Source: Halorussus sp. MSC15.2 | GTDB taxonomy: Archaea; Halobacteriota; Halobacteria; Halobacteriales; Haladaptataceae | Reading direction: 5' to 3' | Length of the DNA: 64,000 bases | Assembly: GCF_010747475.1 (NCBI RefSeq) | Contig: NZ_VSLZ01000009.1 | Coordinates: 1-64,000, forward strand | Shown: positions 4,914 to 39,197 of the stretch, one piece after another | Position numbering within the stretch: position 1 is the stretch's first letter | Layout of the letters: every line of letters begins with the position of its first letter | Translations under genes and position numbers: made by a program | Notes under the pieces: model-generated | What the model was told of the DNA's origin: nothing | The model's database searches: none | What the model saw: the letters and a program-made list of their open reading frames with translations, nothing else

Positions 4914-5026
4914 CCGCGACGCCGGTAGCTATCTTCTCGCTCTCGGTCGAATTCCCGGACGGAACGCGGTTTCTGTCCGTCCCGCCGAGCGAATTTTCCG
5001 ACGCGAACCCGAACGGCCCGACGAGC

Positions 5027-5701
5027 GTGACGGACCCGATACGCCGCTGTCCGGACCACGGTTTCGTGACCGCACCTGCCAGCGGTGACCCGGACTGTCC
5101 GGAGTGCGGCGCGGACGTCGAGCGAGTGCTCCCGGGCGAGCGCAGACGCCGCCTCTCGAAGTTCGTCAGCGGCGCGCTCCGCCACTTCCCCGACGAGGCC
5201 GGTCTCGAACTGGACGACAGCGGGTGGGCCGACTACGCCGCCCTCGAAGACGCGGTGGTTAGCAAGTACGAGTGGGCCGACCCGCAACTCCTCGCCGCGG
5301 TGGTCGCCACCGACCCCAAGGGCCGATTCGAGCGCGAAGGGGGTCGGATTCGCGCGGCGTACGGTCACTCGGTGGACGTGACGCTGGGAGCGAGTGAAAA
5401 CGACGCCGAGAACGAGATTCCCGACCGACTCTACCACGGTACCGACCCGGACAATCTGGACTCGATTCACGCGGAGGGGTTACACTCCATGAACCGGCAG
5501 GAGGTTCACCTTTCGGGGACGCCCGCCGAGGCCCGTGAGGTGGGACGTCGGCACACCTCGAGTCCGGTCGTCCTCGAAATCGACGCGTCCGAGATGGTCG
5601 CGGACGGCCACCGAATCTCGAAGCGCGGCGCGGAGACGTACACCGCCGACGAGGTACCGCCGGAGTATTTGGACGTTCGAGAGCAGGAGGAGAGGGACTG
5701 A
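5027..5701 (+). CDS. kptA: RNA 2'-phosphotransferase (Tpt1/KptA)
   Basis: KptA-family enzymes move an internal 2'-phosphate of RNA to NAD+, giving ADP-ribose 1'',2''-cyclic phosphate. The 224-residue protein has an N-terminal zinc-ribbon-like part (CPDHG and CPECG), then the family core RRLSKFVSGALRHFP, ATDPKGRFE, RAAYGHSV, LYHGT and EVHLSGTPAEA. The GTG at 5027 is chosen because conserved sequence begins there (VTDPIRRCPDHG) and an AT-rich element (aatttt, about 4992) lies some 30 nt upstream. Archaeal tRNA splicing leaves no 2'-phosphate, so the physiological substrate in this group is unclear. Confidence 0.9.
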   Translation: MTDPIRRCPDHGFVTAPASGDPDCPECGADVERVLPGERRRRLSKFVSGALRHFPDEAGLELDDSGWADYAALEDAVVSKYEWADPQLLAAVVATDPKGRFEREGGRIRAAYGHSVDVTLGASENDAENEIPDRLYHGTDPDNLDSIHAEGLHSMNRQEVHLSGTPAEAREVGRRHTSSPVVLEIDASEMVADGHRISKRGAETYTADEVPPEYLDVREQEERD

Positions 5702-35032: not shown

Positions 35033-37500
35033 ATGGCGACGACCGGGGACCAGCAGTACGTGGACCACGAACTCCTCGTTCCGGAGTTCATCGAGCGCCG
35101 GATGTACCAGTTGCAACTCGCGGGGTCGGCGAAGGACCGCCACACGCTGGTCTGCCTGCCGACCGGACTGGGAAAGACGACGGTGAGTCTGCTGGTCACG
35201 GCCGAGCGACTGTCGAGCGTGGGCGGGAAGTCGCTGCTGCTCGCGCCGACCAAACCGCTCGTCCAGCAGCACGCCGACTTCTACCGGGAGGCCCTCCAGA
35301 TTCCCGACGACGATATCGTGGTGTTCACCGGGGAGGTCCGACCGACGAGCGCACGGAACTCTGGCAGAGCGCGCAGGTGGTCATCGCGACCCCGCAGGTC
35401 GTGGAGAACGACCTCGTCGGAAGCCGAATCGACCTGCGCGACGTGACCCACGTCACCTTCGACGAGTGTCACCGCGCGACCGGCGACTACGCCTACAACT
35501 ACATCGCCGAGCGCTACCATCAGGACGCCGAGAAGCCGCTCGTGACGGGGATGAGCGCCTCGCCCGGCGGCGACGAGGAGGAGATACTGGAGGTCTGCGA
35601 GAACCTCGGCATCGAGAACGTGGAGGTGATGACCGAGGAGGACTCCGACGTGGACGACTACACCCACGACACCGAGGTGGAGTGGGAGCGCGTCGAACTG
35701 CCCGACGAGGTGCTGGAGATTCGGGACGCGCTCAACGACGTCGTGGAGGACCGACTGGAGAAACTGAAGGAACTCGGCATCACCCGCAAGACGAGCGCCG
35801 ACCTCTCGGAGACCGACATCAAGAAGATGCGGGCCGAACTCCAGCAACTCATCGACAACGACCAGTCGGAGGGGTACAAGGGGATGTCGGCGCTCGCCGA
35901 GATTCGAAAGCTGCGGACCGCGGTGACTTACGTCGAGACCCAGAGCGTCGAGGCGCTCCGGCGGTACTTCGAGCGCCAGCGCAACGCCGCCAAGTCCTCG
36001 GGCGCGTCGAAGGCGAGCCAGCGGTTCGTCTCCGAACCCAAAGTGCAGGAGGCGATGCGGAGAGCCGAGGAGTACGACGGTCTCCACCCGAAATACTCCC
36101 GTGCCCGGATGCGAATCGCCGAGACGCTCGGCATCGAGAACGGCGAGCGCGTCATCGTGTTCACGGAGTCCCGCGACACCGCGGAGGCCCTGACCGAGTT
36201 CTTGGGCGAGCACTTCGACACCCAGCGGTTCGTCGGGCAGGGCGACAAGGAGGGCAGCGATGGAATGACCCAGAACGAACAGCAGGAGGTGCTGGACCGG
36301 TTCAAGGCCAACGAGTTCGAGGTGCTGGTCTCGACGTCGGTCGCCGAGGAGGGTCTGGACGTGCCCGAGGTTGACCTCGTGATGTTCTACGAACCGGTCC
36401 CCACCGCGATTCGGTCCATCCAGCGCAAGGGCCGGACCGGACGACAGGCCGAGGGCCGGGTCGCGGTCCTGCTCGCCGAGGACACCCGCGACGAGGCCTA
36501 CTTCTGGATTTCCAAGCGCCGCGAGGACGAGATGGAAGACGAACTCCGGAAACTGAAGGGAGTCGCCGACGAGGTCGAGGAGGAACTGGACGACTCCCAG
36601 CGCCAACTCGCCGACTTCGATAGCGGCGGGTCGGGCAGCGAGGACGGGGACTCCCAGACCGACGTGGAACCCGGTTTGCAGGCGTTCGATGCGAGCGACG
36701 ACGGAGACGACGAGGCAGAGGACGGCGGAGCGAAGGACGACGCGGAGACCGCAGGCTCCGACCGCGACGATTCCGAAGAAACCGCGGACGCGGAAGAAGT
36801 TGCAGACGAAACGGAGGGCGTCGTGGCCACCGCCGAACCCGACGACGAGACGGTCGAAATCGTCGCCGACCAGCGCGAACTCGACTCCACCATCGCACGC
36901 GACCTCTCGACCCGAGAGGGAATCGAGACGCGCCTCGAAACGCTCTCGGTCGGCGACTACGTGCTGAGCGACCGCGTGGTGGTCGAGCGCAAGTCGGTCA
37001 CCGACTTCCTCGACACCCTGACCGGCGGCGACCGGTCGATGTTCGAGCAGTTGGGCGACGCGACGCGCCACTACGCCCGCCCGGTTCTGATTCTGGAGGG
37101 CGAGGGTCTCTACGAGGAGCGGAACGTCCACCCCAACGCGGTCCGCGGGGCGTTGGCGTCGTTGGCGGTCGATTTCGGCACGAGCGTTCTCCGGACGACC
37201 GGGGAGGACGACACCGCCGACCTGCTGGAAGTCATCGCCACCCGCGAACAGGACAAGGACGACCGCGAAGTGTCGGTCCACGGCGAGAAGGCGAGCAAGA
37301 CGCTGGCCGAACAGCAGGAGTACGTCGTCTCCTCCATCGCCGACATCGGTCCCGTGACCGCCCGGTCGCTCTTGGAGGAGTTCAAGACCGTGGAAGCGGT
37401 CATGACTGCTCGGGAGGACGATTTACTGGACGTTCAAGGCGTCGGTGAAGTGACCGCCGAACGCATCCGCGAAGTCGTCGGCAGTGAATACGACCGGTAG
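35033..37500 (+). pseudogene. hef: Hef helicase/nuclease, reading frame broken by a one-base deletion
   Basis: Hef processes stalled forks and branched DNA. The N-terminal SF2 helicase has CLPTGLGKTTVSLL (Walker A) and DECH, and motif VI QRKGRTGRQ. An acidic linker follows, then an XPF-type nuclease domain with VVERKSVTDFLDTL and a helix-hairpin-helix end (IADIGPVTARSLLEEF, LLDVQGVGEVTAERIREV). The frame breaks at about 35338: gaggtccgacc reads into a wrong frame, while one extra C restores EVPTDERTELWQSAQVVIATPQ. Repaired, it would have 822 residues. Both parts are well conserved, so a sequencing error or recent mutation is likely. Confidence 0.92.
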
Positions 37501-37699
37501 TGGTACCACTCGGTCGTAAACAATCACGAACGATGCGGTGAAATCCGCCGCTACCTCCTCGCGTTTCGAGCGTTCCGATGTGAGAAACCGTAGCTTACTC
37601 CCGGGAGAAACGGTGTAATACCGCGTTTTCTGGTAAAACTCGACAGAACAGCCACGGCGACTTAAGCCAGCTAAGAATGTTTGTTCGGGTACCGAGTAA

Positions 37700-38005
37700 A
37701 TGAAATACGAACAGCCTTCCACCGAGGACACGATGGGGAGTGCAGGTTCGCTCTACGGAGAGCCGGAAAGTGACGAAAAGTGCAGCGATGAGCGTGCTCT
37801 CTACGGTGAACCGTGCCACGAGGTCAGTTCCGACGACGACCTCAAGCGGCTGTACGGCGAACCGCAGCACGAGATTCGCGACGAACCCCGCGACTTTCCG
37901 GACGTGGAACTCCTCTTCGTGCGACTGCAGGTCGAGTCCGCCGCCGGACCGACCGTGCTACCGCCCCGCTCAGAATCCTCGACTGCGAGCGCTACGGAAC
38001 GATAG
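37700..38005 (+). CDS. Small acidic protein with three LYGEP repeats, unknown family
   Basis: A 101-residue acidic protein. The pentapeptide LYGEP occurs at residues 18-22, 34-38 and 51-55, giving a repeat unit of 16-17 residues (LYGEPESDE, LYGEPCHEV, LYGEPQHEI). The C-terminal third (DFPDVELLFVRLQVESAAGPTVLPPRSESS) is unlike the repeats. No signal peptide or membrane segment is seen. Codon use is typical of the genome, and the repeats differ at synonymous sites (ctctacggagag, ctctacggtgaa, ctgtacggcgaa), as expected under protein-level selection. It overlaps the uspA end by 14 nt tail to tail. A possible TATA (cttaag, about 37662) lies 35 nt upstream. Confidence 0.6.
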   Translation: MKYEQPSTEDTMGSAGSLYGEPESDEKCSDERALYGEPCHEVSSDDDLKRLYGEPQHEIRDEPRDFPDVELLFVRLQVESAAGPTVLPPRSESSTASATER

Positions 38006-38384
38006 TTACCGGCACCGCTTCTTCTTGGACGACTGTGTGCGCGGCGCTTCCGAGTATGGCCCTGTCGATAGTGCTACCGCCGTGATGACCCATCACGACG
38101 TGGTCGTAACTGCGCTCGTCCACCAGTTCGAGGATGTCTTTGCCGACCCGCTCGGCCGGTCGGAACGACAGGTCCACGTCGGTCGATACCTCCGGTTCGT
38201 CGGTTACGCCTGCTTCGTCGAGGCGTTCGCGCGCACGGTCGAGGATGTCGTCGGTCGCGTCCGTCTCGACGTCGGTGATGTGGACGACGTGTAGCGAGGC
38301 CTCGAATCGGCGGGCGAACTCGATGGCGAAGTCGAGGGCGCGGAAACTACACTCCGAACCGTCGATGGGAACGAGGATGTCCAT
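37992..38384 (-). CDS. Universal stress protein (UspA family)
   Basis: A 130-residue single-domain Usp protein: ILVPIDGSECSFRALDFAIEFARRF at the N-terminus and the ATP-binding motif GHHGGSTIDRAILGSAAHTVV (G-2x-G-9x-G-S) near the C-terminus, ending VPVTIVP. It is of the ATP-binding class. Haloarchaea have many paralogues and the stimulus is unknown. It starts 28 nt downstream of the stop of the SSSCA1-type gene on the same strand, so the two may be co-transcribed. Confidence 0.92.
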   Translation of the reverse strand: MDILVPIDGSECSFRALDFAIEFARRFEASLHVVHITDVETDATDDILDRARERLDEAGVTDEPEVSTDVDLSFRPAERVGKDILELVDERSYDHVVMGHHGGSTIDRAILGSAAHTVVQEEAVPVTIVP

Positions 38385-38411: not shown

Positions 38412-39197
38412 TTAACGGTTCGCCCGGTCGAGCGCGGCGAGGGCTTCGGCGGCCTCACGGGTCGCCGCGAGCAGGTCGCGGGCGCGGGCCACGTCGTCGG
38501 TCGTCTCGGCCTCGCGCGCGAGCGACGAGAGCTTTCGGACGAGCGCTTCGCGGGCGGTTCCGAGGTCGTCGCGGTCGGCCGAGGTCGCGCCGTGAGCGTG
38601 GCGGTGTCCGGAGGCGTTCGCGGGACTGCGGTCGCGGGCGGAGCGTCTCTCGTCGGTCGGACGCTGACTGACTGCGTTCCGGGTCGATGCGTCGCGGGTC
38701 GGCGCGTCGCGATTCGACGCATCTCGGGACTGACCGTCGCGGCGGTCGTCGGTCTGTGACGGCGGGCGGCGCAGGTCCGACCGGTCGGCGTGTTGGTCGG
38801 CGACTCGCACGTCGTTGATTTCGACGTAGGGTTCGTCGTCCGGGTCGTCGGTCGCCGGCCGGTCGGCGGTTTCGGCGGTCTGCTGGTTTCGGTCGGCGTT
38901 CGCCTCGGCCTGCGCGGGCGTCTCGGTGGACTGCTGGGCCTGCTCGCTCTGGTCGCCGTTCTGTCCCTCGGCCTGCGCGCGCGCCTCGTGCTGGCAGGTC
39001 GGGCAGAACTCCTGCCCGTCGTATCGGAAGATGGGGTCGCCGCAGTTGTCGCAGTGCTTGCCCGTCATCGTCGCGCCCTGCAGGAGGAGTTCGCTCATCC
39101 GACGCGTGTTCTCGCGGTCCTGCTCCTCGTCGCCGTACTTCTCTCGAAGTTTCTCGCGCTCGGCCTCCTTGTCGAACTCCGAGTCGTCGCTGCTCAT
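38412..39197 (-). CDS. Sjogren's syndrome/scleroderma autoantigen 1 (UPF0148) family zinc protein
   Basis: A 261-residue protein. The N-terminal part, EKYGDEEQDRENTRRMSELLLQGATMTGKHCDNCGDPIFRYDGQEFCPTCQ, is the UPF0148/SSSCA1 motif with a CxxC...CxxC zinc ribbon (about residues 49-69). A long disordered Gln/Asp/Arg-rich region follows (about 75-205), then a helical C-terminus (ALVRKLSSLAREAETTDDVARARDLLAATREAAEALAALDRANR). The ATG at 39197 is preferred over the in-frame TTG at 39206. The archaeal family has no known function. Confidence 0.85.
   Translation of the reverse strand: MSSDDSEFDKEAEREKLREKYGDEEQDRENTRRMSELLLQGATMTGKHCDNCGDPIFRYDGQEFCPTCQHEARAQAEGQNGDQSEQAQQSTETPAQAEANADRNQQTAETADRPATDDPDDEPYVEINDVRVADQHADRSDLRRPPSQTDDRRDGQSRDASNRDAPTRDASTRNAVSQRPTDERRSARDRSPANASGHRHAHGATSADRDDLGTAREALVRKLSSLAREAETTDDVARARDLLAATREAAEALAALDRANR

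Follow-up and report, generated by a model that had tools for sequence, protein, structure and literature searches.

A haloarchaeal family of small acidic proteins with paired YGxPQHE motifs, encoded beside hef

Introduction

Haloarchaea encode small single-gene proteins such as the C(P)xCG zinc-finger micro-proteins of Haloferax volcanii, which are thought to bind other molecules (PMC11241148). The protein family described here is likewise small, single-gene and haloarchaeal, but its members lack the C(P)xCG motif, are mostly longer than 70 amino acids and are predicted to be disordered. Small haloarchaeal proteins also make up DUF7835 (PF25205), a putative zinc beta-ribbon family whose genes adjoin or overlap those of the motif protein in some paralogue loci; DUF7835 has paired CxxC motifs and an FSREPYRV block, whereas the motif protein has neither. 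In layout, the motif protein is like disordered proteins that carry tandem short linear docking motifs: its short motifs are invariant and evenly spaced, and the acidic chain around them varies. We know of no short-linear-motif class that matches YGxPQHE.

The gene lies next to hef, which encodes a helicase-nuclease of stalled forks. A small partner encoded near hef would share a functional circle with HAN and PCNA, the known Hef partners (PMC7776575), but the motif protein shows no sequence relation to them and its link to Hef is positional only. We present the gene as it occurs in a 64,000-nucleotide stretch (the window) from a 4.4 Mb draft genome of Halorussus sp. MSC15.2, and argue that its product is probably a small docking adaptor.

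A protein gene under purifying selection

The gene and its conserved neighbours in the window are as follows.

35033..37500, + strand: hef (Hef/FANCM-type helicase-nuclease; Pfam helicase, ERCC4 and HHH domains), conserved upstream neighbour
37700..38005, + strand: gene for the small acidic tandem-motif protein P0001 (open frame, homologues, dN/dS)
37992..38384, − strand: uspA, convergent neighbour (Pfam Usp, E 1.9e-24), overlapping the P0001 gene by 14 nt
38412..39197, − strand: gene for an Auto_anti-p27 zinc protein, next conserved neighbour (Pfam PF06677, E 1.7e-16)

The frame at 37700-38005 opens with ATG and encodes 101 amino acids, of which 24 are D or E and 10 are K or R, making the product acidic. 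An earlier note on this DNA had described a small acidic protein with three LYGEP peptides at 16-17 residue spacing that differ in their synonymous codons, its gene running 14 nt into the convergent uspA. All of this is present: LYGEP occupies residues 18-22, 34-38 and 51-55 (spacings of 16 and 17), its three codon sets all differ (CTCTACGGAGAGCCG, CTCTACGGTGAACCG and CTGTACGGCGAACCG) and the 14-nt overlap spans 37992-38005. Of the 11 Halorussus genomes with uspA at the locus, 10 have an overlap of precisely this length. The conserved C-terminal TTE[RQ] was considered as a by-product of this overlap and rejected, because it persists in relatives where no uspA was found there. Any pentapeptide occurred three times in 13 of 200,000 residue shuffles of P0001; the homologues are stronger evidence than this statistic.

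Homologues were found in all 18 same-genus (Halorussus) genomes (E ≤ 1.6e-12), that of Halorussus aquaticus being 91% identical to P0001. Across the 18 orthologues the +1 frame alone is open, and dN/dS among the ten nearest (45 pairs) is 0.21-0.56. The motif residues are invariant in the 18 species, and G, P, Q, E and L there are written with 2-4 synonymous codons. The earlier note's suggestion of selection on the protein is thus supported by both dN/dS and codon usage, and the frame is a real protein gene under purifying selection.

The conserved unit is longer than LYGEP

The claim that LYGEP is the conserved unit did not survive comparison with relatives, which show a longer YGxPQHE. The conserved unit of the family, YGxP(Q/C)HE, forms part of E[RQ]xLYG[ED]PQH[ED], which usually occurs in two copies followed by a short hydrophobic segment. 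Only the second and third copies of P0001 belong to the conserved core.

37751..37765, + strand: N-terminal degenerate unit LYGEP (residues 18-22), without the QHE half in P0001
37799..37822, + strand: core unit 1, LYGEPCHE (residues 34-41); Y, G, P and H invariant in 18/18 Halorussus
37850..37873, + strand: core unit 2, LYGEPQHE (residues 51-58); Y, G, P, Q and H invariant in 18/18
37904..37942, + strand: C-terminal hydrophobic segment VELLFVRLQVESA (residues 69-81); a helix in the AlphaFold2 model, with LLF largely conserved

Core unit 2 is the most conserved stretch of the family, and the Y, G, P and H of core unit 1 are also invariant in all rows of two alignments, A1 and A2. The three copies of the earlier note proved to be a lineage quirk: in most relatives the first unit reads LYGES, LYGGS or LYGDS or is absent, in three it is complete (YGSPLHE, YGTPRHD and YGESNHE) and homologues mostly have two units, sometimes one or three. 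The N-terminal LYGEP of P0001 is a decayed extra unit.

Among 70 members, 57 of the 58 intervals between neighbouring units measure 16-19 residues, 46 of them 17 or 18, and the linkers vary; the hydrophobic segment after the motifs differs between paralogue classes. The pattern that found these members fixed Y/F, G and the P and H positions, so that counts there are biased; it did not impose the remaining residues, of which Q occurs in 97 of 120 units, E or D after H in 110 and L before Y in 55. Motifs at conserved spacing under protein-level selection, the mark of a tandem short-linear-motif adaptor, were found.

AlphaFold2 gave P0001 no globular fold (pLDDT 62, pTM 0.19), with a short helix leading into each core unit and another at residues 69-81; a Haladaptatus paralogue scored similarly (pLDDT 57, pTM 0.17). 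The models suggest a chain that is largely disordered and helical only locally; they do no more than suggest it, because the alignments given to AlphaFold2 were shallow (18 rows). The earlier picture of spaced motifs in a disordered acidic chain therefore holds for the spacing and fits the models, but not for LYGEP as the unit.

The invariant residues admit a serious rival to docking, namely a shared site for zinc or another metal, formed by the His and Glu residues of both YGxPxHE units (plus Cys in Halorussus), with a mini-domain that folds on the metal. Consistent with such a site, H is invariant in both Halorussus core units, E or D follows it in most units, most Halorussus sequences place C ahead of the first H, and a zinc-ribbon gene accompanies some paralogues. 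However, one paralogue class has S where an acidic residue would follow H (YGPPQHS), H itself is lost in two members (L176 and L184, YGDPQFE), many members keep only one full unit, and AlphaFold2, which cannot model metal, does not bring the units together. We judge a metal site unlikely.

Distribution of the family

A profile search placed the family in all 28 genomes of the window's taxonomic family and in 25 of 391 genomes of the class. As a DNA pattern, YGxPQHE was found in 34 of 391 haloarchaeal genomes and 11 of 86 genera, with 53 matches against 13 for a reversed control pattern; one match (G409, locus L209), which has no hef close by, was discarded as due to chance. In Haladaptatus the motif gene is present in two to eight copies per genome, many on secondary contigs. 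The earlier note had proposed searching haloarchaea for the repeat, variable repeat number and conserved neighbours; homologues with all three were found, and the objection that related genomes might hold no homologues with the repeat fails because they do. A viral or plasmid origin was rejected: the motif protein had no plasmid match and no relatives in viral contigs, and phage matches were only at chance level and in unrelated phages.

The hef locus

The hef-locus copy sits in a syntenic block of GlyRS, hef, the motif gene, often a convergent uspA, the p27-like zinc protein and mdh; the Auto_anti-p27 gene occurs in 26 of 41 clustered stretches (window counted). Several genomes have two motif genes in a row beside hef, the second being shorter (38-54 amino acids), with one YGPPQHE and in tandem with the main gene.

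L085, 6321-6437: second short motif gene
L086, 6289-6405: second short motif gene
L089, 5736-5900: second short motif gene
L094, 5758-5922: second short motif gene

In the window, hef is frameshifted near 35344, with residues 1-104 in one frame (35033-35344) and 105-817 in another; the gene is intact in H. aquaticus, and the break may be an assembly error in the draft genome.

Aligned upstream regions of the 18 Halorussus genomes contain a conserved promoter-like arrangement. Over 75 nt it comprises GAAACt, GAACGGCC, a TATA-like cTTAAG and then GAGTAA abutting the ATG, and the series GAACGGTC...TTAAA...GAGTAA is common to Halorussus and Haladaptatus hef-locus copies.

37625..37699, + strand: promoter-like region, conserved in the aligned upstream regions of 18 Halorussus
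37625-37630: GTTTTC
37646-37653: GAACAGCC
37661-37666: TATA-like CTTAAG
directly before the ATG: GGTACCGAGTAA

From this conservation we infer that the gene may have its own, nearly leaderless (short-leader) transcript, independent of its neighbours. Copies at a second locus in Haladaptatus (L073, L076, L079, L098 and L186) have a common upstream stretch of their own, TTGCGGGTGCAGGCACGAGTCACCTG-like and possibly regulatory.

Could the motif protein be a dedicated partner or regulator of Hef, kept beside hef since both work together? In most of the fetched 12-kb loci, from several families, the motif gene starts 71-366 nt after hef on the same strand. Outside the window's taxonomic family, a small ORF likewise follows hef in the same orientation at 19 of 20 further loci examined, the remaining one being a chance hit. 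Adjacency is nevertheless no proof of a link to Hef, because the block of GlyRS, hef, p27 and mdh is syntenic as a whole and the position perhaps just inherited. The Halorussus gene also has a conserved promoter-like region of its own, many Haladaptatus paralogues lie away from hef, and close relatives of Hef occur in 194 of 194 genomes, against only 34 of 391 for the motif pattern. Among 30 loci read directly 3′ of hef, those outside the window's taxonomic family mostly have no motif gene, which makes it either an accessory gene there or one too diverged to be recognised. A dedicated Hef partner is as doubtful, in our estimate, as the metal site.

Pairing of paralogues with DUF7835

The earlier note's partner with a LYGEP-binding pocket is still a hypothesis, but paralogues away from hef supply a candidate for the docking reading. 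At nine paralogue loci fetched from Haladaptatus and Halorussus, the next gene 3′ on the same strand encodes a DUF7835 (PF25205) zinc-ribbon protein and in some cases overlaps the stop codon of the motif gene; matching loci occur in named Haladaptatus genomes. In one Haladaptatus pair (L110), the motif gene spans 4959-5270 and the DUF7835 gene 5282-5431. In seven genomes, 6 of about 24 motif copies are so paired, against about 0.02 expected under random placement by our own arithmetic; because the paired cases are related by descent, they count as no more than about three independent arrangements.

Present in 95 of 116 genomes, DUF7835 has a much wider distribution than the motif protein and must therefore have other roles. 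Its main copies are mostly solitary, and a small acidic partner was not seen beside DUF7835 genes generally, some loci being too poorly resolved by the gene caller to read. Neither the hef-locus copies, including P0001, nor the plasmid-type paralogues have DUF7835 nearby, and one motif-bearing genome (G098) showed none; in the window's genome a DUF7835 protein is encoded elsewhere. For the plasmid-type paralogues no conserved neighbour was found with a simple gene caller that misses genes in low-GC stretches. One 7.3 Mb Haladaptatus genome (G026) has 20 DUF7835 matches, compared with 1-6 in others. In two Halorussus genomes (L180 and L182), a P-type ATPase-like gene, identified by eye, follows a motif paralogue at a distance of 35-50 nt, both genes being on one strand.

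Tight pairs, together with extra copies on Haladaptatus secondary replicons (up to 8 per genome), also speak for a toxin-antitoxin-like two-gene module on mobile replicons, with the motif gene and DUF7835 as its halves. We think this very improbable: PADLOC gave no match, the main DUF7835 copies are widespread and mostly solitary, and at the hef locus the motif gene is conserved by vertical descent with no partner gene beside it.

Comparison with known families

Searches of Pfam, NCBIfam, PADLOC and PDB with the motif protein returned no match, which for PADLOC also leaves it outside the anti-phage defence systems covered there. PHROG 24662 was rejected as its family, with an E value of 0.09 in one member of 18 being at chance level. 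A literature search on the LYGEP motif and on DUF7835 gave no relevant result. P0001 has two isolated cysteines that are not conserved in the family, and does not have the two CxxC or C(P)xCG pairs of the DUF7835 and C(P)xCG zinc ribbons. The YGxPQHE family and its motif appear new; small disordered motif-bearing archaeal proteins are, as a kind, already known.

Repeated LYG units with variable linkers resemble multi-core precursors and the XYG splice motif, and could be modified or excised from a RiPP- or spliceotide-like precursor. In 60 fetched loci, however, no called neighbour longer than 180 amino acids has the CxxxCxxC radical-SAM motif; the gene is either solitary or adjoins hef, uspA or DUF7835, and the conserved C-terminal segment and C-terminus are unlike a core peptide, leaving this reading with very little probability. 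Least probable of all, to the point of being negligible, is that the frame is spurious or that what is conserved here is not a protein but DNA or RNA: chance frames are common in GC-rich haloarchaeal DNA and this compact region overlaps uspA, but the dN/dS values, the sole open frame in 18/18 orthologues, the homologues in other families and an Rfam search of the region without a match to a known RNA element all speak against it.

Proposed role and significance

The two conserved motif copies, the usual adjacency to hef and the zinc-ribbon pairs at some loci together make a docking adaptor the probable role, and this reading fits because the spaced motifs are invariant, the linkers are variable and no globular fold is predicted. 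Two tandem E[RQ]xLYG[ED]PQHE units about 17 residues apart, with the hydrophobic helix after them, could form a bivalent surface that would bind one conserved partner. DUF7835 is the leading candidate for that partner because paralogues are encoded directly upstream of a DUF7835 gene; Hef is the second candidate. In Halorussus, P0001 would be expressed between hef and uspA from a promoter of its own, its candidate partner would be the DUF7835 protein encoded elsewhere in the genome, and the two may act as a small regulatory complex. As a whole, this account of P0001 as a small, disordered, acidic, bivalent docking protein in a regulatory pair with DUF7835 is tentative, somewhat short of an even chance. 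More speculative, and in our view unlikely, is its extension to a new haloarchaeal two-part regulatory system, in which YGxPQHE adaptors bind DUF7835 through their paired motifs, the hef-linked copy is ancestral and Haladaptatus has multiplied the pair across its replicons.

The family is uncatalogued, carries an invariant motif in at least 11 haloarchaeal genera, lies beside a central fork-repair gene and has expanded in Haladaptatus. Its YGxPQHE motif has the specificity needed of a bait, and the gene pairing names DUF7835 as a candidate for interaction. If the link to DUF7835 is true, the motif protein would offer a first way into the function of a zinc-ribbon family that is widespread but has none assigned.
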